Source: Roseateles koreensis (GTDB lineage Bacteria > Pseudomonadota > Gammaproteobacteria > Burkholderiales > Burkholderiaceae_C). From it: 64,000 nt of DNA. Location of the stretch: assembly GCF_028595305.1 (NCBI RefSeq), contig NZ_JAQQXS010000004.1, forward strand, positions 62,001-126,000, written 5' to 3'. How positions within the stretch are numbered: the stretch's first letter is position 1; each line of letters starts with the position of its first letter. The notes under the pieces are model-generated. The model worked only from the letters and a program-made list of their open reading frames with translations, had not been told where the DNA came from and did no database searches. Both the position numbers and the translations under genes were made by a program. This document shows positions 24,136 through 46,505 of this stretch, piece after piece.

Positions 24136-24164
24136 GGCCGGCGGGCGTTAGCAAACCACCGGCC
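24136..24164 (-). terminator. GC-rich hairpin downstream of metK
   Basis: GGCCGGCGG (24136-24144) pairs with CCACCGGCC (24156-24164), nine pairs including one G-U. It begins 22 bases after the metK stop on the minus strand. No T-run follows, so termination is only likely. Confidence 0.5.
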
Positions 24165-24185
24165 TTGGGTGTGACTGCGCGAGGC

Positions 24186-26498: not shown

Positions 26499-26501
26499 GC
26501 C

Positions 26502-27383: not shown

Positions 27384-27449
27384 TCCGTTGATCCGATCTG
27401 AAGCCGATCCGGCGCGGGGCAGGATCGGGGCCAAGGTGATAATCCCGCC

Positions 27450-28310
27450 ATGAATCTACGTTTCACCAAAATGCAGGGCGCCGGCAATGACTTTGTGGTC
27501 ATCGACGCCACAAGCGCGCCGCTGCAGTTGAGTGCCGAGCAAATCCGTGTTCTGGGCGATCGGCGTTTTGGCGTGGGCTGCGACCAAATTCTGGTGATCG
27601 AACGAAGCCATACGCCTGACGTCGATTTTCGCTACCGAATCTTCAACGGCAGCAGCGGCGCCGAGGTGGAGCATTGCGGCAACGGGTCACGCTGTTTTGT
27701 GCGTTATGTGGTGGACAAAGGCTTGACCGACAAGCGCAGCGTGCGCGTCGAAACGGTCAACGCGATCTTGACCCTGCACTTGCGGGACGACGGCCGCGTC
27801 ACCGTTGACATGGGCGCGCCGGTGTTCGATTTGGCACGGGTTCCTTTCGATCCGCATGGCTTGAACCCGCGTGAATTGAACGGCTTTGCGCTGTGGCCTT
27901 TAGAAGGCGCTGATTGCGAAGTGGCCGTGCTCTCCATGGGCAACCCGCATGCCGTGCAACGCGTTGACGATGTGGACCGCGCGCCGGTGCTGCAGCGTGG
28001 CGCTTTGGTGGAGGCGCACGCCCGCTTTGCACGCAAGGTGAACGCGGGCTTCCTGCAAATTTTGTCGCGCAACGAAGTGCGCCTGCGCGTTTTCGAGCGT
28101 GACGCGGGTGAAACCCTGGCCTGCGGCACGGGCGCTTGTGCCGCTGTGGTGGCAGGCATCCGCCTCGGTTGGCTGGACGAGTCGGTGGAAGTGCACGCCC
28201 GTGGCGGCGATTTGAAAATTGAATGGGCAGGCCTGACGCAAGGCCTGCACGCACCGGTGCTGATGACAGGGCCGGCGCAATCCGTGTTTGAAGGAGAAAT
28301 TTCGCTGTGA
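27450..28310 (+). CDS. dapF: Diaminopimelate epimerase
   Basis: 286 residues. Both catalytic cysteines are present: [10 protein letters not shown] in the N-terminal half and [11 protein letters not shown] in the C-terminal half. The enzyme interconverts LL- and meso-diaminopimelate, giving the peptidoglycan cross-link residue and lysine precursor. Its stop overlaps the GTG start of the DUF484 gene (GTGA), forming the conserved dapF-DUF484-xerC cluster. Confidence 0.96.
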
Positions 28311-29062
28311 ACAGCCACATCCCCACGCCCGAGGGCGCGCCCAGCATCACCGAGCAGGACATTGCCGAGTTTTTGCTCCGTACGCCGAGCTTTTTCGAGC
28401 GCCACGCCGAGTTGCTGGCCACCGTGCAACTGACGCACCCGCTGGGGCAGCGGGCGGTGTCGCTGCAAGAGCGCCAGGCCGAGATGCTGCGCGACAAGAT
28501 CAAGGGCCTGGAGTTCAAGATCATCGAGATGATCCGCAACGGCCAGGAAAACGTGGCTATTGCCGACCGCCTGCACCGCTGGACCAAACGCCTGATGCAG
28601 ACGTCACGCGCCGCTGACCTGCCCGAGGTGTTGTTGCACGAGTTGCGCCACCACTTCATGATTCCGCTCGCCGGCCTGCGCTTGTGGGATGTGGCGCCGG
28701 CGTTTGCCGACGCAGAGTTCGCCCAGGCGGTCAGCGCGGATGTGAAGAGCTTCGCGAACAGCCTGTCGCAACCCTATTGCGGCGTGAACTCGGGGTTTGA
28801 GGCGGCGCGATGGTTGAGCGGCCAGGAAGGCGCGCCCGCCACCGGCGCCGCGGCGTCGATTGCGCTGATTCCGCTGATGCCCGCGGAAGAAGGGCGCAAG
28901 AGCTTTGGCCTGTTGGTTTTGGGCTCCCCGGACCCGACCCGCTACACGGCGGAAATGGGCACCGAGTTTTTGCAGCGCGTGGGTGATATCGCCAGCGCGG
29001 CGCTGGGGCGATTGCTGGCGTTGCCGGCCTCAACAGCTGCTGATGAAGGTCGCGGGGGCTGA
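28307..29062 (+). CDS. DUF484 family protein
   Basis: 251 residues from GTG 28307, with AAGGAGA at 28291-28297. Typical start [21 protein letters not shown], then a coiled helix ([21 protein letters not shown]) and a GAF-like C-terminal domain ([22 protein letters not shown] and [17 protein letters not shown]). Function is unknown, but it sits between dapF and xerC in many Proteobacteria. It overlaps both neighbours. Confidence 0.9.
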
Positions 29063-30026
29063 AGCCGCCGAGCCGGTTGACGAGGGGCCGCGCCCCTTGT
29101 TACCGCTGCTTCAGGACTATCTGAACCATGTGCGGGTGGAGCGCCGCCTGGCGCCGCGCAGCGTGGCGATCTACACGCAGGCCCTGCAGCGCTTGCAGGC
29201 GTTCAGCCAATCCGGCGCGGGTCTGAATCTCACGGCATTGAGCATGCTCCAGGCGCGGGGGTTGTTGATGCGCATGCATGGCGAGCAGCAGTTGGGGCCG
29301 CGCAGCATGGCGTTGCAGTTGTCGGTGTGGCGGGGGCTGTACCGTTACCTCGGCGGACGCCAACAAGTGTCGTTCAACCCTTTTGATGGCTTGCGTGCGC
29401 CGAAGGCACCCCGACCCCTGCCCAAGGCCTTGGGGGTGGACGACGCGGTGCATCTTGCCGAATTCAAGAGCACCCAAATCGACCCGGTGGCTGCGGCCCT
29501 GGACCACTGCATGGTCGAACTCTTATACGGTTGTGGCCTGCGTGTGGCGGAACTTGAAGGCCTGGACGTTCAAGCCAACCCGGCCGCCCTGGGTTGGGTA
29601 GACACCCAGGCGGCGGAGGTGCATGTGCTGGGCAAGGGCAGCAAACGGCGCAGTGTGCCGGTGGGCGAGGCCGCCTTGGCGGCACTGCAAGCCTGGTTGA
29701 CTGTGCGCGGGCAAAGAGCCCTGCCGGACGAGCGGGCTTTGCTGGTGGGCGTGCGTGGGCGGCGGCTCGGCTCGACGCAGATTCGCACGCACTTGCGCCA
29801 GCATGCGCTGGCGGCGGGCAGTCCCAGTCATGTTCATCCGCATATGCTTCGGCACTCCTTCGCCTCGCATGTGTTGCAGTCCAGTGGTGACTTGCGGGCT
29901 GTACAGGAGTTGTTGGGGCATGCGCAGATTGCCACCACGCAGGTGTACACCCAATTGGACTATCAGCATCTGGCCAAAATTTATGACGCAGCGCATCCGC
30001 GCGCAAAGAAGAAAAAACATGACTGA
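29043..30026 (+). CDS. xerC: Tyrosine recombinase XerC
   Basis: 327 residues from ATG 29043, overlapping DUF484 by 20 bases. The SAM-like N-terminal domain is about 18-105. The catalytic residues are Arg167 (GCGLRVAEL), Lys198 (GKGSK), His267 and Arg270 (HMLRHSF), His293 (LLGHA) and the nucleophile Tyr302. With XerD it resolves chromosome dimers at dif. The dapF-DUF484-xerC context supports the housekeeping role rather than an integrase. Confidence 0.94.
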   Translation: MKVAGAEAAEPVDEGPRPLLPLLQDYLNHVRVERRLAPRSVAIYTQALQRLQAFSQSGAGLNLTALSMLQARGLLMRMHGEQQLGPRSMALQLSVWRGLYRYLGGRQQVSFNPFDGLRAPKAPRPLPKALGVDDAVHLAEFKSTQIDPVAAALDHCMVELLYGCGLRVAELEGLDVQANPAALGWVDTQAAEVHVLGKGSKRRSVPVGEAALAALQAWLTVRGQRALPDERALLVGVRGRRLGSTQIRTHLRQHALAAGSPSHVHPHMLRHSFASHVLQSSGDLRAVQELLGHAQIATTQVYTQLDYQHLAKIYDAAHPRAKKKKHD

Positions 30027-31617
30027 GTTGCAAGTTCGTGGGCGCAAACCCCGCATGAAATTGACCGCACCGCACCGCCATGCATTGGCTTTTGCGGTGC
30101 TGATCTTGGGCATGGCTCGGGCCCAGGCTCAGACTGTGGTCGAGCCGACGTCCCCTGCATTCGCAACCGCTACGCGCGTTCGCCTGGGCGAATCGCGCCC
30201 TGCCGCGGTGGAGCTTAACTGGACCCCGCTGGCCCTGCCGGATGGCGGCAAAACTTCGATGCTGGGCGGCAGTTACCTGATGGCGGTGAACGACGACTGG
30301 GGCTTTGGCCCCAGCGTGTACGGCTCGGCCAGCGGGGGCTACGGCGGCATTTTCACAGTGGGCTTGACGACGCAGCGGCGCTGGCGTGTGGGCCAGGACA
30401 CGCATCTTGCGGCCGGTCTGTATGTGGGGGCCGGCGGTGGGCTGAGCAGCGACCAGCTGCGTTTTGGCGGCGGCTTGATGCTGCGCCCCGAGTTGTCGCT
30501 GCGCACCGAGTTTGGCGACTGGTATGGCGGTATCGGGGTTGCCATGATCCGATTCCCGAGCGGCAATATCAGCGGCACCAGCTACACCGTGGTGCTGGGG
30601 CGGGCTAGCAGTTTTGCCAGCTTTTTGCCCAGCGACTCCGGCCGGCCGGGGCGTGCGGGCTCCCGCACCGGGCTGGGGTTTGACGAAATCATGCTTTATG
30701 GTGGCATCGATACGCCCCGCAGCAACACGCTCAACCGCAGCGGCCAATCCAGCACCAAGCACCTTGGCAAGGCGGGTGCTGACTTGCGCCAGTACATTGC
30801 CGATGGCAGTTGGTGGGGCGTAGAGGCAGCCGGTGCCGCTCAGGGCGGCAGCGATGGTTATATGGAAGTGTTGGCCAATGCGGGCCAGGACTGGTCGGTG
30901 GGCAGCCCCAAAGTGCGTGTAGGCGCCCAGTTAGGGTTGGGCCTCGGTGGTGGCGGCAATGTGGACACTGGCAGCGGCTGGCTGCTGCGCGCCGGCCCCA
31001 GCCTGCGCTGGGTGACACCTTGGGGGCCGAGCCTGCGCCTGGAGGGCGGGTGGACACAGGCCGTGTCGGGCCACTTCTCTGGCAGTTTCGCGCGCTTGGG
31101 CTTGAGCTTTCCGCTCGACATCACGCCCTCGGCCTCGGCGGCCTGGGGCGGTGATGACCTCGACGAAGGCATCGTGCGCACCACCCAGATCTTTGCCAAC
31201 GTCACGCAGCTCGGCAATGTCTTGTTCAAAGACGGCGCGCGTGAGTCCATTGGCCTGTACAACATGGTCATGACCCGAGAGCTGACGGCGCATCTGTACG
31301 GCGTGGCTCATGCCGGCAGTGCAGCCACGGGGCGTGCGGGTGCGTACTCCGTTGGTATGTTCGGTTTGGGCCTGCAGAGCAACGCTTGGGGCGCTTGGCG
31401 CCTGGGCGCCGAGTTGCTGGCGGGTGCCGCGGGTGGTGGCGGCGTGATGGTGGGCGGCGGTGCCGTCGGGCAGGGCGAGCTGTGGGCGCAGTGGGAGGGC
31501 GAGCGGCTGCGCTTGCGCGGCGGCCTGGGGCAGTGGCGCAGCTTGCGCCATGCGGAGCAATCAGCGCCCATGGTCAGCTTGTCAGTGGGTTATGCCTACG
31601 GTGCGTTGGCCCGTTGA
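30019..31617 (+). CDS. Unrecognised repeat-containing outer-membrane-like protein
   Basis: 532 residues from ATG 30019, overlapping xerC by 8 bases; ATG 30055 would give a more compact signal peptide ending near RAQAQ. No known family was recognised. The sequence has amphipathic beta patterns and three stretches of similar make-up: a Gly-rich strand pair (VGAGGGL, LGLGLGGGGNV, LAGAAGGGGVM) followed by a run like LRTEFGDWYGGIGVA or LRGGLGQWRSL and a closing aromatic/Gly strand. This suggests an internally repeated beta-barrel or beta-solenoid in the outer membrane. It lies between xerC and rlmI. Confidence 0.6.
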   Translation: MTELQVRGRKPRMKLTAPHRHALAFAVLILGMARAQAQTVVEPTSPAFATATRVRLGESRPAAVELNWTPLALPDGGKTSMLGGSYLMAVNDDWGFGPSVYGSASGGYGGIFTVGLTTQRRWRVGQDTHLAAGLYVGAGGGLSSDQLRFGGGLMLRPELSLRTEFGDWYGGIGVAMIRFPSGNISGTSYTVVLGRASSFASFLPSDSGRPGRAGSRTGLGFDEIMLYGGIDTPRSNTLNRSGQSSTKHLGKAGADLRQYIADGSWWGVEAAGAAQGGSDGYMEVLANAGQDWSVGSPKVRVGAQLGLGLGGGGNVDTGSGWLLRAGPSLRWVTPWGPSLRLEGGWTQAVSGHFSGSFARLGLSFPLDITPSASAAWGGDDLDEGIVRTTQIFANVTQLGNVLFKDGARESIGLYNMVMTRELTAHLYGVAHAGSAATGRAGAYSVGMFGLGLQSNAWGAWRLGAELLAGAAGGGGVMVGGGAVGQGELWAQWEGERLRLRGGLGQWRSLRHAEQSAPMVSLSVGYAYGALAR

Positions 31618-31652
31618 ATGGCCGAGCGAAGCAAGCAACATCAGGAAATCTC

Positions 31653-32846
31653 ATGAAGAAAATCGTCATACGCGCAGGCAAAGAGCGCTCGCTGCAACGC
31701 CGCCACCCTTGGGTGTTTGAAAGCTCCATCGCACGCGGCGGCGCCGACGCCGGCGAAACGGTGCGGGTGGAGTCCATCGAGGGCGGGTTCTTGTGCTGGG
31801 GCGCGTTCAGCCCGCGCTCCAACATCCGCGTGCGGGCCTGGAGCTTTGAGGAGGCGCAGCGCATCGACGCGAGCTTCTTTGAGCAGCGCCTTGCCCGCGC
31901 CCTGGCCATGCGCGCGCGCCTGCCCATTGCCTCCGACGCACTGCGCCTTGTGCATGGCGAGGCCGACGGCCTGCCCGGCCTCATCGTTGACCGCTACGGC
32001 GACACCTTGGTGGCGCAGTTTTTGTCCGCCGGCGTCGAGCGATGGAAGGCCGTGATCGTCGATCAGCTGCTGGCCGCCACCGGCTTGCAGCGCTTGTATG
32101 AGCGATCTGACGCACAGGTGCGTGAGCTTGAAGGCCTGCCGCAGCAAACGGGCTGGCTGCGTGGTGCTGATGTTCATAATGGCCAGACTGAACTGACCAT
32201 TGCTGAGCACGCCTGGCGCCTGAGTCTGGACGTGGCCGAGGGCCACAAAACCGGCTACTACCTGGACCAACGCGACAACCGCAAGAAGTTTGCCGACAGC
32301 GTGCGCCAGTACGGTTGCAAGACGGTGTTGAACTGCTTCAGCTACACGGGCGGTTTTTCGGTGGCGGCCTTGGCCGGTGGTGCCGAAGAGGTCATCAGCG
32401 TTGACTCCAGCGCGCCAGCATTGGCCCGGGCTGATGCCCACGTGCGCTTGAACGGCTTTGACGCCGCCCGCCACCGCAGCCTGGACGCTGATGTCAACGC
32501 CACGCTGCGCAACTTTCTCAAAGAAGGCCGGCAGTTTGATGCCATCGTGCTGGACCCGCCCAAGTTCGCGCCCACGGTGGCCCATGCGGAGCGCGCCGCG
32601 CGGGCCTACAAAGACATCAACCGGCTGGGCTTGAAGCTATTGGCGCCGGGCGGCTTGCTGTTCACCTTTTCGTGCTCGGGCGGCATCAGCCCCGACTTGT
32701 TCCACAAAATCGTGGCCGGCGCGGGCATGGACGCGCAGGTAGACGCCTACATCCTCGACCGCGTGGGCGCCACGCCCGACCACCCGCAGACCATCAACTT
32801 CCCCGAAGGGGAGTACCTCAAAGGCCTGCTGTTGCTGAAGGCTTGA
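31653..32846 (+). CDS. rlmI: 23S rRNA (cytosine(1962)-C(5))-methyltransferase RlmI-like
   Basis: 397 residues from ATG 31653 with AGGAA upstream. The N-terminal PUA domain (1-75, RAGKERSLQRRHPWVFESSI) is followed by the EEHEA-like linker and a Rossmann methyltransferase with VLNCFSYTGGFSVAAL, the DPPKFAP motif and a catalytic Cys in FTFSCSGG. Such enzymes make m5C in 23S rRNA. It is convergent with the Lrp-type regulator gene. Confidence 0.92.
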   Translation: MKKIVIRAGKERSLQRRHPWVFESSIARGGADAGETVRVESIEGGFLCWGAFSPRSNIRVRAWSFEEAQRIDASFFEQRLARALAMRARLPIASDALRLVHGEADGLPGLIVDRYGDTLVAQFLSAGVERWKAVIVDQLLAATGLQRLYERSDAQVRELEGLPQQTGWLRGADVHNGQTELTIAEHAWRLSLDVAEGHKTGYYLDQRDNRKKFADSVRQYGCKTVLNCFSYTGGFSVAALAGGAEEVISVDSSAPALARADAHVRLNGFDAARHRSLDADVNATLRNFLKEGRQFDAIVLDPPKFAPTVAHAERAARAYKDINRLGLKLLAPGGLLFTFSCSGGISPDLFHKIVAGAGMDAQVDAYILDRVGATPDHPQTINFPEGEYLKGLLLLKA

Positions 32847-32889
32847 AGGGGCGGCCTGGGGCGGCCCGCGCCCACGCCCACGGCTGGGC

Positions 32890-33375
32890 TCAGCCCGGCA
32901 AGGTGATGCGGGGGTCGAACTTGGCCCGGTGCACGCTGAAAAACGTCTTCACATTGCGCACATTGGCGTCCTGCGTGAACAAGCGCTGCACCAGCCCGTG
33001 GTAGGCCAGCATGTCGGGTACCTGCAAAATCAGCACAAAGTCAGGCCCTGGCGACACCCGGTAGCACTGCTGCACCGCCGCGTCAGCTTGCACCTTGGTT
33101 TCAAAAGCGGCCAGATGTTCAGCGCCCTGGCGGTCCAGCGTGATCTCCACGATGGCGCTCAGGCTGGCGCCTAACTTGTCGGCATTCAGCAGCGCAACGC
33201 GGCGCTCGATGATGCCCATTTCTGTCAAACGCTTGACCCGGCGCAGGCCGGTGGCTGGCGACACATGCGCGGCCAGCGCCAAGTCCTGGTTGGACAGCGC
33301 CGCGTCCCGTTGCAGCAAATCCAGTAGGCGCAGGTCGGTGGCATCCAGCACCAAGGTTTGACTTGAATTGCTCAT
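32890..33375 (-). CDS. Lrp/AsnC family transcriptional regulator
   Basis: 161 residues. The N-terminal HTH (about 10-60: LDATDLRLLDLLQRDAAL, HVSPATGLRRVKRL) is followed by an AsnC ligand-binding RAM domain (SLSAIVEITL, VQQCYRVSPGPDFVLILQV). It is divergent from glmS, with an AT-rich palindrome between them that may be its operator. The effector amino acid is unknown. Confidence 0.92.
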   Translation of the reverse strand: MSNSSQTLVLDATDLRLLDLLQRDAALSNQDLALAAHVSPATGLRRVKRLTEMGIIERRVALLNADKLGASLSAIVEITLDRQGAEHLAAFETKVQADAAVQQCYRVSPGPDFVLILQVPDMLAYHGLVQRLFTQDANVRNVKTFFSVHRAKFDPRITLPG

Positions 33376-33428
33376 ATTTAATCGTTTCGTGAAATTTTCA
33401 TTCTTTACTGCGGAGTCGTGAATGATTA

Positions 33429-33453
33429 TTTCAAATTCAATTTAATTTTGAAA
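33429..33453. promoter_or_regulatory. AT-rich inverted repeat in the lrp/glmS intergenic region
   Basis: TTTCAAA (33429-33435) and TTTGAAA (33447-33453) are exact complements around an 11-base AT-rich centre. Lrp-type regulators favour such AT-rich dyads. It is 53 bases from the lrp start and 72 from the glmS start, suitable to control both. Confidence 0.5.
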
Positions 33454-33524
33454 GCATTGATTTCTGTCGTTTGCCTACGATGGCTGCTATTCGTTCAACC
33501 TCTTCTTCAAGAGAGCAGTCAGCC

Positions 33525-35396
33525 ATGTGTGGAATCGTCGGTTCTGTCAGTCAGCGCAACATCGTTCCCATCCTGATCGAAGGCCTCAAACGCCTGGAAT
33601 ATCGGGGTTATGACTCCTGCGGCGTGGCCGTGCACCAAGACGGCGGGCTCAAGCGCGCCCGCAGCACCTCACGCGTGGCCGAACTCATGGCGCAAGCGAA
33701 AGACGACCCCATCGCCTCGGGCACCGGCATCGCCCACACCCGCTGGGCCACGCACGGCGCCCCGGCGGTGCACAACGCGCACCCGCATTTTTCACAAGGC
33801 CCCCATGCCACTGAAGGCAGCGTGGGCCGCATCGCGCTGGTGCACAACGGCATCATCGAGAACCACGACGAACTCCGCAACGAACTCAAAGCCAAGGGCT
33901 ACGCCTTCAGCAGCCAGACCGACACCGAAGTGATCGCCCATCTGGTGGACCACCTCTACAACGGCGACCTGTTGGAGGCCGTGCAGCAGGCCTTGCCGCG
34001 CTTGAAGGGCGCCTACGCGGTGGCGGTGTTCTGCCGCGACGAGCCGCACCGTGTGGTGGCCGCGCGTGAAGGCTCGCCGCTGGTGCTGGGCGTTGGCATG
34101 GAAGCGGCCGATGCCGAGAACTTCGTCGCCTCCGACGCCATGGCCCTGGCCGGCGTTACCGACCAGATCGTCTACCTTGAAGAAGGCGACGTGGTGGACC
34201 TGCAGTTGGGCCGTTACTGGATCAGCGCCCTGAACGCTGAGACGGGCCGTTATGAGGCTGCACAGCGCCCCGTACGCACGGTGCATGCGCACAGCGGCGC
34301 GGCCGAACTGGGCCCTTACCGCCACTACATGCAGAAAGAAATCTTCGAGCAACCCGAGGCCATTGCCAACACGCTGGAAGGCGTGGTCGGCATCAGCCCC
34401 GAGCTGTTTGGCGACGGCGCCTACAGCGTTTTCAAAGAGATCGACTCGGTGTTGATCCTGGCCTGCGGCACCAGCTTCTACTCCGGCTCCACCGCCAAGT
34501 ACTGGCTGGAGTCCATTGCCAAGATCCCCACCAATGTGGAAATCGCCAGCGAATACCGCTACCGCGACAGCGTGCCAAACCCGCGCACTTTGGTCGTTAC
34601 GATCAGCCAGAGCGGCGAAACCGCCGACACCCTGGCCGCCCTCAAACACGCTCGTAGCCTGGGCATGAAGCACACCTTGACCGTTTGCAATGTGGCCACC
34701 AGCGCCATGGTGCGTGAGTGCGAGTTGGCCTACATCACCCGCGCCGGTGCTGAAATCGGCGTGGCCTCCACCAAAGCCTTCACCACGCAACTGGTGGGCC
34801 TGTTCATGCTCACACTGGCATTGGCGCAGACACGCGGCGTGCTCAGTGATGCGCAAGAAGCCGAGCACCTGAAGGCCCTGCGCCACTTGCCCGTGGCCGT
34901 GCAGGCCGTGCTGGCACTGGAGCCCCAGGTCATCGCCTGGAGTGAAGAATTCGCCCGCAAAGAGAACGCGTTATTCCTGGGCCGCGGCTTGCATTACCCC
35001 ATCGCTTTGGAAGGCGCGCTCAAGCTCAAGGAAATCAGCTACATCCACGCCGAGGCCTATCCCGCCGGTGAGCTCAAGCACGGCCCGCTGGCCCTGGTCA
35101 CCGCCGAAATGCCCGTGGTCACGGTCGCCCCCAACGACACCCTGCTCGAAAAGCTCAAGAGCAATATGCAAGAAGTCCGTGCCCGCGGTGGCCAGTTGTA
35201 CGTGTTCGCTGACGGCGACACCCAGATCGAAAGCGAACCCGGCCTGCACGTGATCCGCATGCCCGAGCACTACGGCGCACTCAGCCCCATCCTGCACACC
35301 GTGCCCCTGCAACTGCTGGCCTACCACACCGCTTGCGCCCGAGGCACCGACGTGGACAAGCCCCGAAATTTGGCGAAATCAGTGACGGTGGAGTGA
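33525..35396 (+). CDS. glmS: Glutamine--fructose-6-phosphate aminotransferase (isomerizing)
   Basis: 623 residues from ATG 33525. The catalytic cysteine follows Met (MCGIVGSV) and is exposed on Met removal. The class II glutaminase domain spans 1 to about 240; two SIS domains follow ([32 protein letters not shown]). The C-terminus [13 protein letters not shown] is the sequence read by TnsD in attTn7. It makes glucosamine-6-phosphate for peptidoglycan and LPS. Position +21 after the stop is occupied by a Tn7-like end. Confidence 0.97.
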
Positions 35397-35416
35397 GGGG
35401 CGCAGCGGGTGTTGGC

Positions 35417-35530
35417 TGTTGATCGTATAAACAAAGACTGTCAGAAAAAAATAAAGCATGTCAGTTCTGAATTGGGGCTCCTGCTGACTCCAACAAATGA
35501 AGACCATCGGGAGCAAATAAAGACAGTCGG
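35417..35530 (+). mobile_element. Candidate end of a Tn7-like transposon at attTn7
   Basis: The stretch begins TGTTGATC, 20 bases after the glmS stop, where Tn7 inserts. TGTTGAT is the terminal sequence of several Tn7-like elements. It is followed by four 14-base repeats resembling TnsB sites: ACAAAGACTGTCAG (35431), ATAAAGCATGTCAG (35451), ATGAAGACCATCGG (35497) and ATAAAGACAGTCGG (35517), two pairs each spaced exactly 20 bp. No tnsABCD genes follow and the opposite end was not found, so it may be a relic or the end of a longer element. Confidence 0.65.
35431..35530 (+). repeat. Four TnsB-site-like 14-bp repeats
   Basis: Consensus AYRAAGNNNRTCRG with the best match ATAAAGACAGTCGG. Starts are 35431, 35451, 35497 and 35517, all in the same orientation. 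Tn7 ends have repeats built on AATAAAGTC at similar spacing, which is why these are read as transposase-binding sites. Confidence 0.7.
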
Positions 35531-35709
35531 GCATTTACTGTCGAAGTTCATTGATTTCTGAGCTTTGTTCGTTCAATGCTGAACTTTCGAGGCGCTAGTC
35601 TGCTGCAGCGCGGCTCAACGAGTGCGCCCTCCATGTTGGGTGGTACCTTTAGCGCTCCGGCGGCCCCCATAGAGGCCTCAAAAGCGGTGAAACCAACGCT
35701 TCAGCTGCA

Positions 35710-35742
35710 AAAGAAGACCGCCCAAGCGTTTGTTCGGCGGTC
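35710..35742 (-). terminator. Rho-independent terminator downstream of the GNAT gene
   Basis: On the minus strand GACCGCC (35742-35736) pairs with GGCGGTC (35722-35716) across a 13-base loop, then TTCTTTTG follows. It lies about 135 bases after the acetyltransferase stop. A second small dyad (ATCAACT/AGTTGAT, 35871-35888) straddles that stop. Confidence 0.7.
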
Positions 35743-35877
35743 GCAGCCTTGTCAGACGGTATGGGTGGTGGTCTCGGCCGCTGCGCACCTCACGCACCGG
35801 ATGTGTCTACCCATATCCGGGGGCCGCTTTGTGCATTGGAGATGCACAAGCGTGACCAGCGAATGAGTCGATCAACT

Positions 35878-36429
35878 TCACAGTTGATTTGACAGGCCAG
35901 CACGGCGCTCAAGACACACTCGATCTGTATTCGGTAAGCGGAAAACATCACGCTCCAGTCCGTCAGGGAAACTCCGCCGCTCCTGGAATTCACCATCAAG
36001 GCTCATCACCAAGGCGCGAGCGCTCGCGTTGGAGTCATTCATATACGTTTCAACAACCGGCCAGCCGAGCACCTCGTAGGCGTGCGCTATCACTGCACGG
36101 GAGGCCTCCTTCGCAAGCCCTTGACCGCGGGCTTGCGGGAGCAGCCACCAAGTCAATTCGCGTGGCCATCCTTTGCCCTGCCAGAAGCCACAAACCCCGA
36201 CGACTTGTTGGTCAACCTTCTGCTGAACGGCCCAAACACCAAAACCTTGCAAGTACCAAGTCCCTAGATCAGAGGCCAATCGTGCCCAGGCCGCTCCGGC
36301 ACTCAAGGGTCCACCGTAGTTGGCCGAGGCCTTTGCATCCGTATAGAAGGCTTGGTAGGCAGGTTCGCAGCTTTGGTCGAGCGGGACAAGGGAGAGGCGC
36401 TCAGTGCGTAAAGTCGGAATATGTAACAT
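35878..36429 (-). CDS. GNAT family N-acetyltransferase
   Basis: 183 residues of the RimJ/RimL-type subgroup: start HIPTLRTERLSLVPL, then FGVWAVQQK, VVGVCGFW, and the acetyl-CoA loop LLPQARGQGLAKEASRAVI (Q/R-x-x-G-x-G/A), ending SARALVMSLDGEF. Substrate unknown. Its start is one base after the stop of the VOC gene (coupled). Both lie in the accessory stretch right of the Tn7-like end and may be its cargo. Confidence 0.85.
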   Translation of the reverse strand: MLHIPTLRTERLSLVPLDQSCEPAYQAFYTDAKASANYGGPLSAGAAWARLASDLGTWYLQGFGVWAVQQKVDQQVVGVCGFWQGKGWPRELTWWLLPQARGQGLAKEASRAVIAHAYEVLGWPVVETYMNDSNASARALVMSLDGEFQERRSFPDGLERDVFRLPNTDRVCLERRAGLSNQL

Positions 36430-36430
36430 G

Positions 36431-36853
36431 TCAATTCGTGGTGGGAGGGCCTTTGAGTTCGACTAGATTGCCGTCGGGATCATGGATATAGAGTGAAAGT
36501 CCATCGCCGTCGGCACCAAAGTTTTCTTCTGCCGGGCCAAGCGGCTTGATCCCATAAACAGCAAGATGAGCAAGCAAGGGAAGTTCCAGAAAAGGTTCAA
36601 CTCTGAGGCATAGATGGTCTAGATTGCGGCCTTGCGAGCCTGCTCCGGCCCCTCCTCGGCGTCCAAGTACACCGTCGATGCGTATCAAATCGATCATTGA
36701 TGTACCGGCCCGCAGATGCACCAACCCAAGGTCATCGCGACGCTTGACTATGGCGCAGCCCAACACCGTCTCATAGAACGAGATGGACCGGGTCAGGTCA
36801 CTGACCCGCAAAACGAGATGATCAATTCTTTGAACGCTGAGAGCCGTCAACAT
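36431..36853 (-). CDS. VOC (glyoxalase/bleomycin resistance) family protein
   Basis: 140 residues from ATG 36853, with AAGGAG nine bases upstream; a GTG at 36883 would include that site in the frame and is disfavoured. The paired beta-alpha-beta-beta-beta modules are IDHLVLRVSDLTRSISFYETVLG and LDHLCLRV to LYIHDPDGNLVELKG. His in the first strand of each module and the final Glu fit a metal-dependent VOC enzyme. It resembles virulence/lyase-type VOC proteins. Substrate unknown. Coupled with the GNAT gene. Confidence 0.85.
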   Translation of the reverse strand: MLTALSVQRIDHLVLRVSDLTRSISFYETVLGCAIVKRRDDLGLVHLRAGTSMIDLIRIDGVLGRRGGAGAGSQGRNLDHLCLRVEPFLELPLLAHLAVYGIKPLGPAEENFGADGDGLSLYIHDPDGNLVELKGPPTTN

Positions 36854-36870
36854 ACACGCCAACTCCTTCT

Positions 36871-36929
36871 GATGAAACCGCACGATTCACCGTACGAGAC
36901 CCGCCCACTTCTCCGTGAGGACTGGGCGG
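36871..36929 (-). promoter_or_regulatory. Structured leader in front of the VOC gene
   Basis: On the minus strand two hairpins precede the ribosome site: CCGCCCA/TGGGCGG (36929-36901) with a short inner TCC/GGA stem, then CGTACG/CGTGCG (36896-36879) closing a 6-base loop. The AAGGAG site follows within 20 bases. It may control translation of the VOC-GNAT pair. No known RNA family was recognised. Confidence 0.4.
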
Positions 36930-37220
36930 CGTCACGCCAGACTTCAACAGCTTGAAGTTGCGTACGTACGTGGAGCCCAACGCGCTGGAGTTGGTTGCCT
37001 TTGTGGTCGTTAAGCCAACGCGTGTCTTTTGGTTTGGTGCCCAGCCGACGCAGCTTTTGCCAAGCCAGGTCATGTAATGAACAAGTGGTACTGCGGTGCG
37101 TAGGGTATGCAAGGGGCAAGCCTGGAAGGCATCGATCAGTCCTTCGGTCGCGTGACATGTATGCGCATGGAAACTAGGTGGTTCTCGCATGGGTCTGGAA
37201 ATTTGTTTCGACATGCAGGC

Positions 37221-37251
37221 ATGATGAAAGTTCAAGTTAACTTGAAGTCAA
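37221..37251 (-). promoter_or_regulatory. SoxR/MerR-type promoter and operator
   Basis: Minus strand: -35 TTGACT (37251-37246), a 19-bp spacer containing the perfect palindrome TCAAGTTAACTTGA (37245-37232), then -10 candidate CATCAT (37226-37221). The palindrome core is identical to that of the Escherichia coli soxS operator, and the over-long 19-bp spacer is the hallmark of MerR-family-activated promoters. It faces the VOC and GNAT genes, with a leader of about 350 bases. No merR or soxR gene is in the window. Confidence 0.6.
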
Positions 37252-37739
37252 GAACTATTTTCTATCTGGCAAGAGTACTCTCACTAGCTCGGTTTCGCTT
37301 GCTGAGTGCCGCAGCAGCGGCCTGCACCTTGAGGGGCGCGTCAGTGCCCAAAGGCGACGTCCGCCCCGGTTCGTACTACTCACGCCGCCGGGCACAGGCC
37401 ATCGTTCGGCAGGTTTCCAGATACCGCCAGTCGACAGGCGAAGGTACGTACTTGCGCAGGCGGGGATGCCCTTGGTTTGAACCTCCGCATCCTAGGTTGG
37501 GATGCCCGCAATACAAAATAGAAACACTACGCGCCAAGTGTGAAGCTTCGGATCGCCGGTTCGGTCGCGCGTGGGTAGAAGTAAACAGTTAAGTCTGGGT
37601 CCGCGAGGGGCTTGTGGCTTTGGGATGCGTGTGCCGGTCAATCTACGCACCCGGGCAGCATGTGTCACCGCATTGCGGCCGGCCGACAGCCCGAATTTAT
37701 TGCCCCAAAGCGGTCAGTCAGGACTGCATTACAAGCGCC

Positions 37740-38441
37740 TCACGGCATCAGCCGATACCCGACCGCAGTTTCTGTCAGCAAATGCCTGGGCTGCGCCGGG
37801 CTCTGCTCAAGCTTCTGGCGCAGATTGCCCATGTACACGCGCAGGTAGTGGTTGTCGTCGACATGCGAAGGCCCCCAAACCGCCTTGAGCAACTGTCGAT
37901 GGGTCAACACCCTGCCGGCATTGGCGATGAGGTGAGTCAGTAGTCGATATTCGGTTGGCGTTAGGTGAACGGCCTCGCCAGCGCGCCGTATTTGGCGCGC
38001 GGCGAGGTCCACCTCGACGTCGCCAAAGCGGAACGAACTCGATGCCGGCACGCTGAGTGCCGCTGCCGTCTGGCTGCGCCGCAGTGCCACCCGTACGCGC
38101 GCCATCAACTCGCCCACGCCGAAGGGCTTGGTCAGGTAGTCGTCTGCACCGGCGTCCAAGGCTGCAATCTTGTCGGTTTCGTCGCTGCGGGCCGAGAGCA
38201 CGATCACCGGAACGCCAGACCAGGCTCGCAAGTCCTTCAGATAGTCGACGCCGTCGCCGTCGGGCAGGCCCAGGTCAAGAACCACCAGGTCCGGTTTGCG
38301 CGTGCCGGCATCAATCAGCCCCTGACGCACTGTTTCGGTCTCAAACACTTGCCAGCCCTCGGCCTCCAGCGCCATGCGTACAAAGCGTCGGATGCTGGGT
38401 TCGTCCTCGACGATCAGGGCGACGGGATGCGGTTCGCTCAT
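37740..38441 (-). CDS. kdpE: Response regulator KdpE
   Basis: 233 residues from ATG 38441, overlapping the kdpD stop (ATGA). Receiver domain 1-120 with LVVLDLGLPDGDG (phospho-acceptor Asp) and YLTKPF; OmpR/PhoB winged helix 135-233 (HLTPTEYRLLTHL, HYLRVYMGNLRQKLE). Phosphorylated by KdpD, it activates kdpFABC at low potassium or osmotic upshift. Last gene of the kdp cluster. Confidence 0.95.
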   Translation of the reverse strand: MSEPHPVALIVEDEPSIRRFVRMALEAEGWQVFETETVRQGLIDAGTRKPDLVVLDLGLPDGDGVDYLKDLRAWSGVPVIVLSARSDETDKIAALDAGADDYLTKPFGVGELMARVRVALRRSQTAAALSVPASSSFRFGDVEVDLAARQIRRAGEAVHLTPTEYRLLTHLIANAGRVLTHRQLLKAVWGPSHVDDNHYLRVYMGNLRQKLEQSPAQPRHLLTETAVGYRLMP

Positions 38442-41155
38442 AACTCGGTTTCTTCTTCTAGCTCTGGAACGATGGGCGGCGTGCCGAGCGGCAGAGCCAG
38501 CACGAAGGTGGCGCCCCCTCCAGGCGTTTGCTCCGCCCAGATGCGCCCCTGGTGTGCCTCCATGATGGCACGGCAGATGGCAAGGCCCAGGCCCACACCT
38601 GGCGTCGTCGACTCGCTCTTGGCCCGGGCGAATTTCTCGAACAAGGCCTCTTCCCGTCCAGCGGGCAGGCCGGGGCCGTTGTCCGTCACGCACAGCCACA
38701 GCTCTTCACCGTGAACCGCCGCCGCGATGCGCACTGCGCTGCCGACCGGCGTGTACTTGGCGGTGTTCTCCAGCAGATTGCACAGCACGCGCTCGATAAG
38801 CACGGCGTCCAGGTCCACCAGCGGCAGGCCGGGCGCCAAATCCGTCGTGACCTGATGTCCGCGCAGCACCGCCTGCATGGCCTGCAAGGCGCTGCCGACG
38901 ACTTCCTCAATCGGCTGCCACTCCCGGCGCAGCTGTACGGCGCCGCTTTGCAGTCGCGCCATGTCGAGCAGGTTGTTCACCATGGCGTTGATGCGCTGCG
39001 ATTCGCGCTGCAGTGCCTGTGCCATGTCGCGCCCCTCCTCGGGCAGGGAGGGCAAGACCGCCAGCGTGTCGGCCAAACCATATACAACCGCCAATGGCGT
39101 GCGCAGGTCATGCGAGAGCGCCGACAGCAGCGAATTGCGCAGGCGTTCGGATTCAACGTGAACCAATGCGTCCTGCGCCACCTCCACGTAGTGCACCCGC
39201 TCCAGCGCCTGGCCGATGATGCTGGCGTAAGTGTCGAGCTGGGCGCGACGCTCGGGTTGCATCACGGCGGCCAGTTCGCGCGGCCGCAGCGCCAGGACGC
39301 CGCGTGCCCGCATCGGCGCCTGCAGCGGCAGATAGAACCATGCGCTGCCAGGCAGGGTGTCGGTGGCGAGGCCAGCGGCCTGCCCATGGTCGAGCGTCCA
39401 GCGTGCGGTGCCGAGGTCGGGGCCGTCCATCGCGGACTCGCTGCCGGCAGGCAGATGAAGTTCGTCGTTCAGGCTCAGGGCCAGCACCAGAGCCGGCCCA
39501 TGCAGCTCACGCGCGAGACTGGCCTGGGCGCTTTCCACCACCTGCTCGGTCTGCAGAGCGCCGCTGAGTTCTCGGGTCAGTTCAAACAAGGCTCTTGAAC
39601 GCCCCTCGCGCTCGGCCGCCACGGTGGCCTGGTAGCGCAGATGCGCCGTCAACTGCCCGGTAATCAGGCCGACAGCCAGCATGACGGCAAAGGTCACGAC
39701 ATATTGCACGTCGGAGACGGCAAAGCTCATCTGCGGCGGCACGAAGAAGAAATCAAACAGACCCACGCTGACAAAGCTGGCCAGGACCGAGGGGCCGCGC
39801 CCCCAGCGCAAGGCCACGCCAACCACCGCCAGCAAGAAGAGCATGACGATATTCGTCAGGTCGAACCAGACATGCAGCGGCCAGCTCAATGCCGCCGTGG
39901 TCACGCAGACCAGGGCTGCGCCCAGATAGCGCCTCCACTGGCTCGCTACCCGCTCCCAGGCGGCGCTGCTTTCCGCAGGAACGCTGACGGTCTTGACGGT
40001 CGTCGGCTGGCCGACTTCGATCAGGTCCACATCGGCCGCGCTGTCAGACAGCTGGTCGTGCAGGCCGGCCCCCGCAAACCATTGCTGCCAGGCTGGCCGT
40101 GCCGGAGCCCGTCCGAGCATCAGCTGCGACAGGTTGTGCTCGCGGGCATGCTCGATCAATGCCTGGGCGACCGCTTGCTCCTGCAGTACAGCGGTGGTCG
40201 CGCCCAGGTCATGGGCCAAGCGCACCACGCGCAGGATGCGCTCCCGCTGCGCGTCGGGCAGGCTTCGCAGGCGCGGGGTCTCCACATAGACCGCGTGCCA
40301 GCTCACATTGAGCTGCTGCGCCAAGCGCGCTGCGCTGCGCACCACATGCTCGGCGCGCGCTGTGGGGCCAATGGCGCAAAGGATGGCGGCCTCGGTCTTC
40401 CAGACCTGGCTGATGGCCTTGTTGCTGCGCCAGGCTTGCACATCGTATTCCACCCGGTCGGCCGTGCGACGCAGCGCCAGCTCGCGCAGGGCCATCAGAT
40501 TGCCCTTGCGGAAGAAGTTCTTGGCGGCCCGTTCTGCCTGTGGGCCAGCGTAGACCTTGCCGGCCTTCAGACGAGCGAGAAGTTCGTCGGCCGGCGTGTC
40601 GACGATGAGGACTTCATCTGCCGCATCGAAGAAGGTGTCCGGCAGCGTCTCTTGAACCCGCACTCCGGTGATGCCGCCGACCACGTCATTGAGGCTCTCA
40701 AGGTGCTGAACATTGAGCGTCGTGTAGACGTCGATGCCATTGGCCAGCAGCTCTTCCACGTCCTGCCAGCGCTTGGGGTGGCGCGAGCCGGCGACATTGG
40801 AATGGGCTAGCTCGTCCACCAGAATCAAGGCTGGCTTGCGCGTCAGCGCCGCATCCAGGTCGAACTCCGGCAGGCTCTTTCCGCGGTACTCGACCTGGCG
40901 CGCGGGCAGCACCGTCAGGCCCTCGGTCAGCGCCAGTGTCTCGCTGCGACTATGGGTCTCGACCACGCCCACCAGCAGGTCACGACCTTCGCTTTTGAGC
41001 TTGCGCGCGGCCTGCAACATCGCATAGGTCTTGCCTACTCCGGCGGATGAGCCGAAGTAGATGCGCAGCTTGCCGCGCGTCGCACGAAGTTCCTCCTCGC
41101 GCAGTTGCTCCAGCAGCGCATCAGGATCGGGGCGTTGGTTGTCGGGCAATAGCAT
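38438..41155 (-). CDS. kdpD: Sensor histidine kinase KdpD
   Basis: 905 residues. The N-terminal KdpD domain has a Walker A (FGSSAGVGKTYAML) and Walker B-like LILVDELAHSN. A USP-like domain (about 255-375) and four close transmembrane helices (about 400-500) follow, then a GAF-like region, HisKA with SHDLRTPLAVV (phosphorylated His) and HATPase with VTDNGPGLP and GVGLGLAICRAI. It senses potassium/turgor. Start at ATG 41155; longer frames would overlap the porin gene. Confidence 0.95.
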   Translation of the reverse strand: MLLPDNQRPDPDALLEQLREEELRATRGKLRIYFGSSAGVGKTYAMLQAARKLKSEGRDLLVGVVETHSRSETLALTEGLTVLPARQVEYRGKSLPEFDLDAALTRKPALILVDELAHSNVAGSRHPKRWQDVEELLANGIDVYTTLNVQHLESLNDVVGGITGVRVQETLPDTFFDAADEVLIVDTPADELLARLKAGKVYAGPQAERAAKNFFRKGNLMALRELALRRTADRVEYDVQAWRSNKAISQVWKTEAAILCAIGPTARAEHVVRSAARLAQQLNVSWHAVYVETPRLRSLPDAQRERILRVVRLAHDLGATTAVLQEQAVAQALIEHAREHNLSQLMLGRAPARPAWQQWFAGAGLHDQLSDSAADVDLIEVGQPTTVKTVSVPAESSAAWERVASQWRRYLGAALVCVTTAALSWPLHVWFDLTNIVMLFLLAVVGVALRWGRGPSVLASFVSVGLFDFFFVPPQMSFAVSDVQYVVTFAVMLAVGLITGQLTAHLRYQATVAAEREGRSRALFELTRELSGALQTEQVVESAQASLARELHGPALVLALSLNDELHLPAGSESAMDGPDLGTARWTLDHGQAAGLATDTLPGSAWFYLPLQAPMRARGVLALRPRELAAVMQPERRAQLDTYASIIGQALERVHYVEVAQDALVHVESERLRNSLLSALSHDLRTPLAVVYGLADTLAVLPSLPEEGRDMAQALQRESQRINAMVNNLLDMARLQSGAVQLRREWQPIEEVVGSALQAMQAVLRGHQVTTDLAPGLPLVDLDAVLIERVLCNLLENTAKYTPVGSAVRIAAAVHGEELWLCVTDNGPGLPAGREEALFEKFARAKSESTTPGVGLGLAICRAIMEAHQGRIWAEQTPGGGATFVLALPLGTPPIVPELEEETEL

Positions 41156-41171
41156 CACGACATTGTCACGC

Positions 41172-41987
41172 TCAGAAGGTCTTGCGGATGCACAGGACAA
41201 GGCCCGTGTCTCCGACGCGCTTAGCGTTCTGGCCGGCCGCATTGGCGACTTGGTAGAAGTCGCGCTTGGCATTGGTGCCAACCAGGGCACCTGTGAGAGT
41301 CAGACCGTGAGTTTCCTTGGACAGCGCAAGCTTGAAGTCGCTGTAGGACAACTCGTCATAGTGCTTCACCGCGAGGTGTCCCAGATGCGTTCCTAGCGTC
41401 AGGCCGTCGCCCAGGTCGATGTTGTAGTTCAGGTCCAGATAGGCACTGCCCTTGGAACCGCCTCGTGCGGGTAGGCTGCTGAAGTATGCGTAGCCAGATG
41501 TCTGGCTGTTGAGGCCGAAGTAGTCGCTGGCTGCAATGGACAGCTTGGCGCTGAAGGGCCCGACGCTCAGGTCGGCATACAGGTCGACGCTGGTGTACTT
41601 CTCATTCGTGGCCACGCCGGGTGCGCTATTCAGCCTGGCTCCGGGGTAGACATAGGCCAAGGCACCGAGGTCCAGGGTCATGTCTTGCGACAGCGCGAAT
41701 TTGTAGCCGCCGTAGAGGTCCACTTCGAGGCCGGCGCCATTGTTGTAGCTGTTACCAGAGACGTTGGACAACCAGGTCCCGAGGTAGGCGCCGCTGCTGT
41801 GGATGTCGTCGAGGCCGCCCTGTATGGCAGGCAGTTTGTAGGTCTGGCTGATGCCGCGGAAGCGGTAGTCGCTGCTGAGGCCGAGGTTTCCGGTCAGCGT
41901 GTGCTCCGGCGTGGTGTCTGCGGCGCGAGCCGTGCCGGTCAACAGGGTGGCGGCGGCGATAAGAATCAGGGTGGGTTTTGTTTTCAT
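41172..41987 (-). CDS. TorF family putative porin
   Basis: 271 residues. Signal peptide MKTKPTLILIAAATLLTGTA with cleavage near ARA. The first mature block, LTGNLGLSSDYRFRGISQT, is the signature of this family (TIGR02001), followed by GLEVDLYGGYKF and a terminal Phe typical of outer-membrane barrels. It lies between kdpC (58 bases upstream) and kdpD (16 bases downstream) on the same strand, so it is probably co-transcribed with the potassium system. Canonical kdp operons lack it. Confidence 0.88.
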   Translation of the reverse strand: MKTKPTLILIAAATLLTGTARAADTTPEHTLTGNLGLSSDYRFRGISQTYKLPAIQGGLDDIHSSGAYLGTWLSNVSGNSYNNGAGLEVDLYGGYKFALSQDMTLDLGALAYVYPGARLNSAPGVATNEKYTSVDLYADLSVGPFSAKLSIAASDYFGLNSQTSGYAYFSSLPARGGSKGSAYLDLNYNIDLGDGLTLGTHLGHLAVKHYDELSYSDFKLALSKETHGLTLTGALVGTNAKRDFYQVANAAGQNAKRVGDTGLVLCIRKTF

Positions 41988-42045
41988 GGTTGTATGTCAG
42001 CGGCCCAGCCGGGGATCGGCCAGACCTGGGATTGAGTTCTAGGGT

Positions 42046-42618
42046 TCAGCGTCGCTGGTCGAGCGCCAGGTTCAGCTTCAGCACGTTGACGCGCGGCTCG
42101 CCGAAGATGGCCCAGTCGCGGCCTTCGGTATGGGTTGCGATCAGGGCTTGCACATCGGCGACCTGGAGGCCGCGCTCGCGAGCCACATGGCCGGCCTGGT
42201 AGCGGGCAGCCTCGGGCGAGATATGCGGGTCCAGGCCACTGGCCGAAGCTGTGACGAGGTCGGCCGGCACGGTCGCGGTATTGCCGGGATCGGCCGCGTG
42301 CAGGGCCTCGATGCGGGCCTTGACCGCATCTACCAGAGCCGGGTTCAGCGGCCCCTGGTTGGACCCGCTGGAGCCGGCGGCGTTGTTGGCCATCGGTCCC
42401 GTGGCCGAAGGACGGCCCCAGAAATACTTGGGAGAGGTGAAGCTTTGGCCGATCAGCGCCGAGCCGAGCAGTTTGCCGTCGCGCGCTATCAGGCTGCCGG
42501 CGGCCTGCTGCGGGAACAGGCCTTGGGCGGCGCCGGTGACGGCCAATGGGTACAGCAGACCGGTGATGGCGCTGAGCAGGGTGAAGATGACGAGTGCCGG
42601 ACGAAGGAGTGTTTTCAT
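42046..42618 (-). CDS. kdpC: Potassium-transporting ATPase KdpC subunit
   Basis: 190 residues. One N-terminal membrane helix ([18 protein letters not shown]), then family blocks [24 protein letters not shown] and DPHISPEAA. KdpC is the single-span chaperone-like subunit of the KdpFABC pump that raises ATP affinity of KdpB. 15 bases after kdpB. Confidence 0.96.
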
Positions 42619-42633
42619 GGCCAGGCCAATCTT

Positions 42634-44724
42634 TCAGATGAGGTGAGCAGCGACCAGGGTCATGTCGATGACCTTGATGCCGATGAAGGGGACGATCAGT
42701 CCGCCCAAGCCGTAGATGGCAAGGTTGCGCCGCAGCAGCGCGCTGGCACCGATGGCCCGGTAGGGCACGCCCTTGAGCGCCAGCGGAATGAGGGCCACGA
42801 TGATGAGTGCGTTGAAGATGACTGCCGACAGGATGGCCGAACTGGGGCTATGCAGACCCATCACATTCAGCGCGGCGAGTTGTGGATACACGCCGACGAA
42901 CATGGCCGGAATGATGGCGAAATACTTGGCCACATCGTTGGCGATGGAGAAGGTCGTCAGCGACCCGCGGGTCATCAGGAGCTGTTTTCCCGTCTCGACG
43001 ACTTCCAGCAGCTTGGTCGGGTTGGAGTCCAGGTCGACCATATTGCCGGCCTCCTTGGCGGCCTGGGTGCCGGTGTTCATCGCCACGGCCACGTCGGCCT
43101 GGGCCAGCGCGGGGGCGTCGTTAGTGCCGTCTCCGGTCATGGCCACCAGGCGGCCCTCTCCCTGATAGTCACGAATCAGCTTGAGCTTGGCCTCGGGAGT
43201 GGCTTCGGCGAGAAAGTCGTCCACTCCAGCCTCGGCGGCGATGGCCGCAGCCGTGAGCTTGTTGTCGCCGGTAATCATTACCGTCTTGATGCCCATGCGG
43301 CGCAGCTCGGCAAAGCGCTCCTTGATGCCGCCCTTGACGATGTCCTTGAGCTCGACGGCCCCAAGCACTCGGGCACCGTCCGCCACCACCAGCGGCGTGC
43401 TGCCGCGGCGGGCAATTTCATCGACAGCGTGGCTCACCTCGCTCGGGAACTTGCCGCCCAGCGCTTCTACGTGGCGGCGAATGGCGTCACCCGCGCCCTT
43501 GCGAACCTGTCGGGTGCCACCGTTCAGGTCCACGCCGCTCATGCGGGTCTGCGCGGTGAAGGGCACGAAGTGTGCATCCATGCCGGTGAGTTCGCGCTCG
43601 CGGATGCCGAACTTGGTCTTGGCCAGCACCACGATGCTGCGGCCTTCCGGTGTCTCATCCGCCAGCGAAGCCAGTTGCGCCGCGTCGGCTAGTTGCTGCT
43701 CGCCGACGCCGGGGGCCGGCACGAAGGCGCTGGCCTGGCGGTTGCCCAGCGTGATGGTGCCGGTCTTGTCCAGCATCAGTACGTCCACGTCGCCGGCGGC
43801 TTCCACCGCGCGGCCCGAGGTGGCGATCACATTGGCTTGCATCATCCGGCTCATGCCAGCCACGCCGATGGCCGAGAGCAGGCCGCCGATGGTGGTGGGA
43901 ATCAGGCAGACCAGCAGGGAGATGAGCGCGGTGATCGACACGACTGTGCCTGCACCGGCCGCTTCGACGCTGAAGACCGAGTACGGCAGCAGGGTCACGG
44001 TGACGACCAGGAACACCATGGTCAGCGCCACCAGCAGGATCGTCAGCGCAATCTCGTTGGGCGTCTTCTGACGCTTGGCGCCTTCGACCATGGCAATCAT
44101 GCGGTCGAGGAAGGACTCGCCGGGGTTGACGCCGATGCGCACGACCAGCCAGTCCGACAGCACGCGGGTGCCGCCGGTGACCGAAGAGAAGTCGCCGCCC
44201 GATTCGCGGATGACCGGGGCCGACTCACCGGTGATGGCGCTCTCGTCCACCGAGGCCACGCCTTCGATGACCTCGCCGTCCAGCGGAATCATGTCGCCGG
44301 CCTCGACCAGCACGACGGCGCCCTTGCGGAGCTCGTCCGATTGCAACGAGTGCCACTGGGACCCGTGCTTGGGCTCGTGCAGCTTCTTGGCCCAGGTGCG
44401 GGCCTTCAGGCCACGCAGCGAGGCGGCTTGAGCCTTGCTGCGGCCTTCGGCAAGTGCCTCCGCGAAGTTGGCAAACAGCACGGTGAACCACAGCCACAGC
44501 GAGATGCCCAGCATGAAGGCGGAGCCCTCGGTGCCGGCCACGGCCGGATCGTGCAGGCTCGCAGCCCACAGGCCGCTGGTCAGGATGCTGCCGACGTAGA
44601 CGACGAACATCACCGGGTTGCGCCACTGGATACGCGGGTCCAACTTTTCGAAGGAGGCCTTGATGGCCGGCTTGACGAGTTGGGGATCTAGGAAGCTCAG
44701 TTTGGTTTGAAGGTTTGCAGTCAT
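42634..44724 (-). CDS. kdpB: Potassium-transporting ATPase KdpB subunit (P-type)
   Basis: 696 residues. P-type ATPase with TGES (AITGESAPV), phosphorylation site [12 protein letters not shown] and hinge [14 protein letters not shown]. Membrane helices flank the cytosolic domains. It hydrolyses ATP to drive potassium entry through KdpA. Starts one base after the kdpA stop, so the two are coupled. Confidence 0.97.
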
Positions 44725-44725
44725 A

Positions 44726-46504: not shown

Positions 46505-46505
46505 G

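Follow-up and report, generated by a model that had tools for sequence, protein, structure and literature searches.

The window analysed here is a stretch of 64,000 nucleotides from Roseateles koreensis, whose genome (G000) is assembled as 4.37 Mb in 35 contigs. Its forward strand carries a glmS gene whose product is full-length and shares 89-96% amino acid identity with GlmS of congeners. The 3' end of glmS is the recognition target of TnsD, according to PMC11406308. Direct reading of 35380-35560 reveals a terminus, TGTTGATC, that begins at 35417, 20 bases past the glmS stop codon. Within 35417-35530 there are four sites of about 16 bp on the same strand, which form two pairs with a spacing of 20 bp inside each pair and 46 bp from the second site to the third. 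The features are as follows.

33525-35396, forward strand: glmS, with its ATG at 33525 and its stop codon at 35394-35396; the 3' end is the TnsD recognition region of attTn7
35397-35416, no strand: attTn7 spacer of 20 bp, read directly
35417-35464, forward strand: candidate end A, glmS-proximal, with terminus TGTTGATCGTATAA and two putative TnsB sites; the same terminus type occurs in G149 and G009
35429-35444, forward strand: A site 1, AAACAAAGACTGTCAG, putative TnsB site
35449-35464, forward strand: A site 2, AAATAAAGCATGTCAG, putative TnsB site
35465-35484, no strand: junction of A and B, read directly; neither the body nor the far end of A is present here
35485-35541, forward strand: candidate end B, glmS-proximal, with terminus TGACTCCAACAAAT and two sites; identified by nhmmer with 20 ends from other genomes
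35495-35510, forward strand: B site 1, AAATGAAGACCATCGG
35515-35530, forward strand: B site 2, AAATAAAGACAGTCGG
35878-36429, reverse strand: GNAT acetyltransferase (Pfam PF13302), possible former cargo
36431-36883, reverse strand: glyoxalase-fold protein (Pfam PF00903), possible former cargo
37740-46573, reverse strand: kdpE-D-(Gcw_chp gene)-C-B-A operon; KdpC is named by position and likeness to congeners only

The original prediction had described four same-strand sites in two 20-bp pairs, 20 bp past the glmS stop codon, and both direct reading and shuffling bear this out. The pattern proposed there, ATAAAGACNGTCRG, was run with up to three mismatches against 100 dinucleotide-preserving shuffles of the window. 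The largest number of sites on one strand within 110 bp was one in 84 of the shuffles and two in the other 16, and never reached three, as against four in the real sequence. An exact match to the pattern occurs once in the whole genome, and the other three copies need mismatches. A generic scan for clusters of AAAG-cored sites in C30:42001-206000, 164 kb of the window's own contig, found a single place, namely the cluster at 35417-35530, while the inverted generic site is absent from 35381-38000. The G+C content is 45.1% in 35397-35560 and 63.4% in 17000-35396.

A reading of the repeats as a terminator or promoter was rejected, there being no intrinsic-terminator-like or sigma-70-like match in 35300-35900, and most congeners differ at this place. 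A conserved glmS terminator region, which had been offered as the finding that would speak against an insertion, fails likewise. Among 14 congeners with a readable site, compared partly by eye, one shows the A type, two show the B type and 11 have other repeats or none.

The two pairs belong to different sequence types. End A reads TGTTGATCGTATAAACAAAG..TGTCAG and end B reads TGACTCCAACAAAT..GTCGG; at 35485 the second pair opens with a separate terminus, TGACTCCAACA. The starts of the two ends lie 68 bp apart with no body between them. The sites of both share the core AAATAAAG, which leaves room for one composite end. TTGGC at 35412-35416 would be the target duplication of end A, the second copy of which was not findable. 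Since no empty site with the same flank was found, a target duplication is not demonstrable for either end.

Relatives of the two ends in other genomes

The A pattern, at up to three mismatches, is found in three of 399 genomes of the family, the present one included, as compared with one of 399 for the reversed-pattern control. An A-type terminus, TGTTGATNNNATAAACAAAG, stands 20 bp behind glmS, without B, in G149 (C1:676199) and in the congener G009 (C7:2357-2383). In G149 the A unit measures 12.8 kb, and at its far end three inverted sites form the counterpart of the A end. It codes for one TPR and one NACHT protein, and tblastn detected no homologue of TnsA or TnsB in it; one ORF region matches, at 34% over 183 aa, the ATPase of the G010 element described below. 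The far terminus of the unit reads differently from TGT, and the flanks are without a clear duplication. Family A is at present without a proven transposase. In G009 the contig edge lies 2.3 kb behind the A end. Between this end and that edge (L009, 165-1948) stand a gene for a tyrosine recombinase and another resembling Xre/MbcA/ParS antitoxins. Another contig of the same genome (C1; L105, 9772-14439) bears tnsA-tnsB-tniB-tniQ genes beside a seemingly split gene, which we take to be of the comM type. This tns element was considered as a match for the ends in the window and set aside because it carries other ends.

Family B is better represented. Its pattern occurs in 26 of the 399 genomes, again counting the present one, and the control in none of 399. 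The distinct B ends were sorted into 20 of proximal type, 10 of distal type and six others, and profiles were built from them without the window. The proximal profile (nhmmer) matches 35485-35541 with 35.3 bits and E=1.3e-9, an E-value flattered by the selection of the 20 model ends for their resemblance to the B terminus of the window; the next best match has E=2.5. In a leave-one-out comparison the 20 others score 39.3-72.2 bits, so that end B ranks lowest of 21, which is in part an effect of this selection. The match starts at model position 1, that is, at the terminus. End B thus displays what defines the family, a terminus TGACNCCAAN with two sites 20 bp apart.

A B-type terminus stands 15-24 bp behind the glmS stop codon in 14 loci (L012, L021, L113, L118, L128, L129, L130, L131, L132, L134, L138, G010, G005 and G052). 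When 30 B loci are considered, the window's own among them, glmS lies within 25 bp at nine; the rest are far ends, stacks or located elsewhere.

The congener G010 carries a B element with its proximal end 16 bp behind glmS and its far end 34.6 kb away (E=3.9e-25). At one border ..CCCT is followed by TGACGCC and at the other GGAGTCA is followed by CCCTT.., which amounts to a duplication of 4-5 bp, CCCT(T), on both sides. The element encodes a 584-aa TnsD (PF15978, 2.3e-27) and a second TniQ protein. It also encodes a 685-aa protein without a Pfam match that shares 25% identity over 330 aa with the TnsB region of G013 (E=8e-11), a 482-aa AAA-type ATPase (2.6e-5, slightly below the Pfam cut-off) and, in a 375-aa gene, a product without a Pfam match. 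The candidate TnsB of the element is encoded at L165:4473-6530 on the minus strand. Its cargo is a type I restriction system. In G221, where a B end also stands behind glmS, the TnsD, the 375-aa and the 685-aa protein all have relatives, of 36-37% identity, within about 21 kb of that end. Judged by the content of the G010 element and by these relatives, B is a TnsD-directed Tn7-like family. The congener G013 has a different element, 33.7 kb in length and flanked at either end by the 5-bp repeat TTTGC (by eye), and served as the positive control for the approach.

Inside the G010 element (L187, 9775-17634, minus strand) lies a gene for a 2619-aa protein that combines a DnaG-type zinc ribbon, a primase core, a Toprim domain and a reverse transcriptase domain, and looks like an unusual fusion. 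In G338 (L109/L135) and G188 (L137), a B end of distal type and one of proximal type are turned towards each other across only 4-5 bp, a sign of tandem elements.

Neither pattern matched in a viral collection. A plasmid collection yielded two weak matches (E 0.1 and 0.5), the first of which, on the Diaphorobacter sp. HDW4A plasmid NZ_CP049911.1, is the same place as G372:C2:235691. It is a sound B end of proximal type (L236, 20001-20073; 65.6 bits) situated away from glmS. No far end and no match to 17 congener Tns proteins were found in the 56.6 kb of this plasmid that were read. An integron integrase gene lies 1.4 kb beyond its B end.

The search for far ends and tns genes

A search of the whole genome with the two patterns returned one forward match for each, both at 35417-35541, and no far end of A or B. 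A relaxed A pattern, which still accepts the far terminus of G149, gave one match only. The distal B profile, run over 224 kb (164 kb from C30 and 60 kb from C12), returned no match in inverted orientation. Its best matches, at E=0.003 and 0.11, fall on the known B end without a change of strand, and the remainder have E 5.9 or worse. The inverted copy of the repeats that the original prediction had proposed to look for is therefore not found for either type in the genome. As the assembly consists of 35 contigs, a far end could sit in a gap.

TnsA (PF08722), TnsD (PF15978) and a B-type TnsB have no match in the genome, while they are present in five, three and three of 18 genus genomes, respectively. 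TniQ (PF06527) is likewise at zero, in a search that had no positive control. These four were the object of the genome-wide search. The 17 Tns proteins of congeners gave no match at E<=1e-3 in C30:42001-206000. It must be noted that tblastn with Tns proteins of other families missed the B-type genes of G221, which were seen in a later search, so that those tblastn runs are weak evidence of absence.

The original prediction had noted the lack of tns genes and offered three accounts of it. That of a relic holds up, in a genome where no TnsA, TnsD, TniQ or B-type TnsB was found. The same result tells against tns genes lying beyond the window. Movement in trans finds no backing, since no second A or B end is detected by pattern in the 4.37 Mb of the 35 contigs, and none of B by profile in 224 kb. 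Of the marks of a complete element, two are found at the proximal side, namely the fixed short distance behind glmS and the TG terminus with its array of putative TnsB sites. An inverted far end, tnsA, a B-type tnsB and a TniQ or TnsD selector were not found. Because neither a far end nor the tns genes searched for were found, 35417-35541 is, as far as its sequence tells, a decayed relic, and on this evidence its ends would no longer move anything.

Compared with Tn7 and TnsD-directed Tn7-like elements at attTn7, the ends agree in standing 15-25 bp behind glmS, in the TG terminus and in AAATAAAG-type sites 20 bp apart, and family B has a TnsD-bearing relative in the same genus. Unlike these elements, the window keeps proximal ends only, with no tns genes and no far end found. 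Moreover, where TGT would be expected the B termini have TGA, and the B flanking repeat is seemingly of 4 (perhaps 5) bp. TGTTGAT-like termini occur in several Tn7-like and CRISPR-associated elements (CASTs). Type I-B1 CASTs have a glmS-targeting TnsD (PMC11406308). In contrast to CASTs, no tns genes were found at the site in the window.

The kdp operon and the region beyond the ends

Homologues of the GNAT and glyoxalase-fold proteins were not found in the other compared loci (tblastn, E<=1e-8). The kdp operon that follows them is located elsewhere in all five congeners tested. In the present genome it is the only kdp among the scored candidates (40 of 251 first-look candidates). At the native kdp locus (G000:C12:162697-162808) there are about 112 bp where G003 and G004 carry kdp. 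KdpA-E share 68-87% identity with those of G003 and G004, as against 89-96% between G003 and G004, a gap of 7 to 22 points. GlmS, by comparison, is 95-96% identical in all three pairs. Among nine genes flanking the native locus, G003 and G004 are the closest pair in three (by 8-10, 1-3 and 3-7 points), and one of the nine overlaps the low end of the range of the kdp gap. The kdp genes in the window thus look xenologous, and their divergence, set against GlmS and the flank genes, suggests that they were probably acquired horizontally. The view of kdp as a plain core gene that happens to lie next to the scar was dropped because kdp is an outlier in identity to G003 and G004.

Synteny with G004 breaks off at glmS and is restored on a larger scale only near 141.4 kb in window coordinates. 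The truD gene (Pfam), which in G004 follows glmS at 0.84 kb, is here about 47 kb away from it and inverted. No match to 46.8-56.4 kb of the window was found in the same five congeners, with 40 of 232-399 candidates per genome scored. The apparently xenologous kdp, the empty native locus and the displaced truD indicate, by comparison of gene order and identity, that the two ends mark the start of a region that was acquired or rearranged. The original prediction had named kdp or the catabolic operon as possible cargo, which is unproven: since no far end was found, nothing ties the acquired or rearranged region to a Tn7-like insertion.

Readings of the stack at attTn7

We favour, at a probability of about three in four, the reading that the sequence behind glmS is a scar at attTn7 holding the glmS-proximal ends of two different Tn7-like families, the bodies of which have been lost. 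According to this reading, a family B element, guided by a TnsD specific for the end of glmS, would have landed behind the gene with its terminus TGACTCC facing it. A family A element would then have followed, entering at the same fixed distance and so coming to lie between glmS and B; this order, B and then A, is read from position only. The bodies and far ends of both would finally have been lost by deletion or rearrangement, and the glmS-adjacent ends would have stayed, as ends in this position may survive where a deletion extending further would hit glmS. The junction at 35465-35484 is probably a deletion scar. In other genomes both end types stand behind glmS without the other. A Tn7-like end at attTn7, as originally predicted, is thus upheld by the fixed distance, the site array and the profile match. 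The prediction of one transposon end with four sites is borne out as to the end; the single end does not stand, two ends of two families being the better description.

Multiple left and right ends may arise when one element inserts into or beside another, as stated in PMC8649781, which cites Peters et al. 2014 for this. The window differs from such adjacent or nested insertions in presenting two unlike proximal ends with no body between.

An unlikely alternative is that the stack is the relic of a cargo unit without a transposase, which was moved in trans, once carried the GNAT and glyoxalase genes and has lost its far end. Units of this kind do exist at attTn7 in G052 (L203) and Duganella radicis (L037), and neither locus has a match to the 17 congener Tns proteins at E<=1e-3. 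However, there is no far end in 35541-38000 and, for B, none in 164 kb, a helper transposase was not found in the genome, and the first L037 unit shows no flanking repeat (by eye).

It is quite unlikely that the stack is a single orphaned transposon end with four TnsB sites, in which TGACTCC at 35485 would be a chance or internal motif. The similarity of four same-strand sites, beyond shuffle expectation, is consistent with it, and the right end of Tn7 has four sites (PMC11406308). Against this, the terminus of the second pair is the outermost end, 15-24 bp behind glmS, in 14 loci, and the B profile match begins at model position 1. Furthermore, the A type occurs in G149 without B sites, and inspection by eye reveals stacks of other end types in G152 (L195) and L061.

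Coming back to the preferred scar of two families, its setting can be judged from 96 attTn7 loci in which the sequence extends for 150 bp or more beyond glmS, a single shorter one having been dropped. In 22 of them 13-mer repeats occur within 330 bp behind glmS, most of them 20 or 40 bp apart; three (L032, L078 and L079) look unrelated by eye. No repeated inverted partner was found for the 22 within the 0.3-20 kb examined, and none in the reversed control. This test is strict, as it sees only the best repeat of a stack and misses units like that of L203 as well as the intact elements of G010 and G013, whose far ends lie beyond the stretch examined or differ. Stacks of unlike end types were recognised by eye in G152, L061, G001 and perhaps G197. 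Repeat-type ends in 22 of 96 loci (three doubtful), with a few unlike stacks, suggest that attTn7, read from the glmS side, is a partly readable record of past insertions.

One could go further and regard attTn7 of Burkholderiales as a cassette shelf, where transposase-less units of several families are stacked in trans and leftover ends act as immunity marks, the window being a last state with marks against A and B. We consider this very unlikely. That the stack is kept by selection because bound ends confer target immunity against families A and B, a 'vaccinated' site, is highly improbable: in the E. coli chromosome, Tn7 inserts less often in the neighbourhood of Tn7 end sequences, over distances of up to 190 kb (PMC12452197, citing earlier work), and proximal repeats are common, in 22 of 96 attTn7 loci with none showing a repeated inverted partner, but immunity requires the TnsB of the family, brought by the incoming element, and recognisable sites, whereas end B is the lowest-scoring of 21 and conservation of the ends is not established. 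Target immunity and a special role of the right end are treated in the review PMC11406308. Orphan ends such as these are natural constructs for asking whether they give target immunity.

Adjacent Tn7-like insertions are already known, and a bodyless stack of unlike proximal ends is a new example, a modest twist. A literature search found no paper combining Tn7-like, non-autonomous, TnsB and glmS. Two surveys of Tn7-like elements take tnsB (PMC8649781) or tnsC (PMC10293859) as their starting point, so that orphan ends and transposase-less units would be missed by them.

Several other arrangements were seen behind glmS. In G052, a 1.54-kb unit (L203, 7708-9249) carries a single DUF6624 gene between its two B ends and has GCTG on either flank, and a second copy of the glmS 3' end is present with its stop codon 127 bp further. 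Duganella radicis (L037, 10962-19400) has two tandem small units with B-like ends and no tns homologues; the first, of 1.5 kb, carries only Lrp and LysE genes. In L019, L025, L036, L053 and L067, a second glmS-like 3' end of the ..KSVTVE type stands about 100-150 bp behind glmS (by eye), as if the att region had been duplicated.
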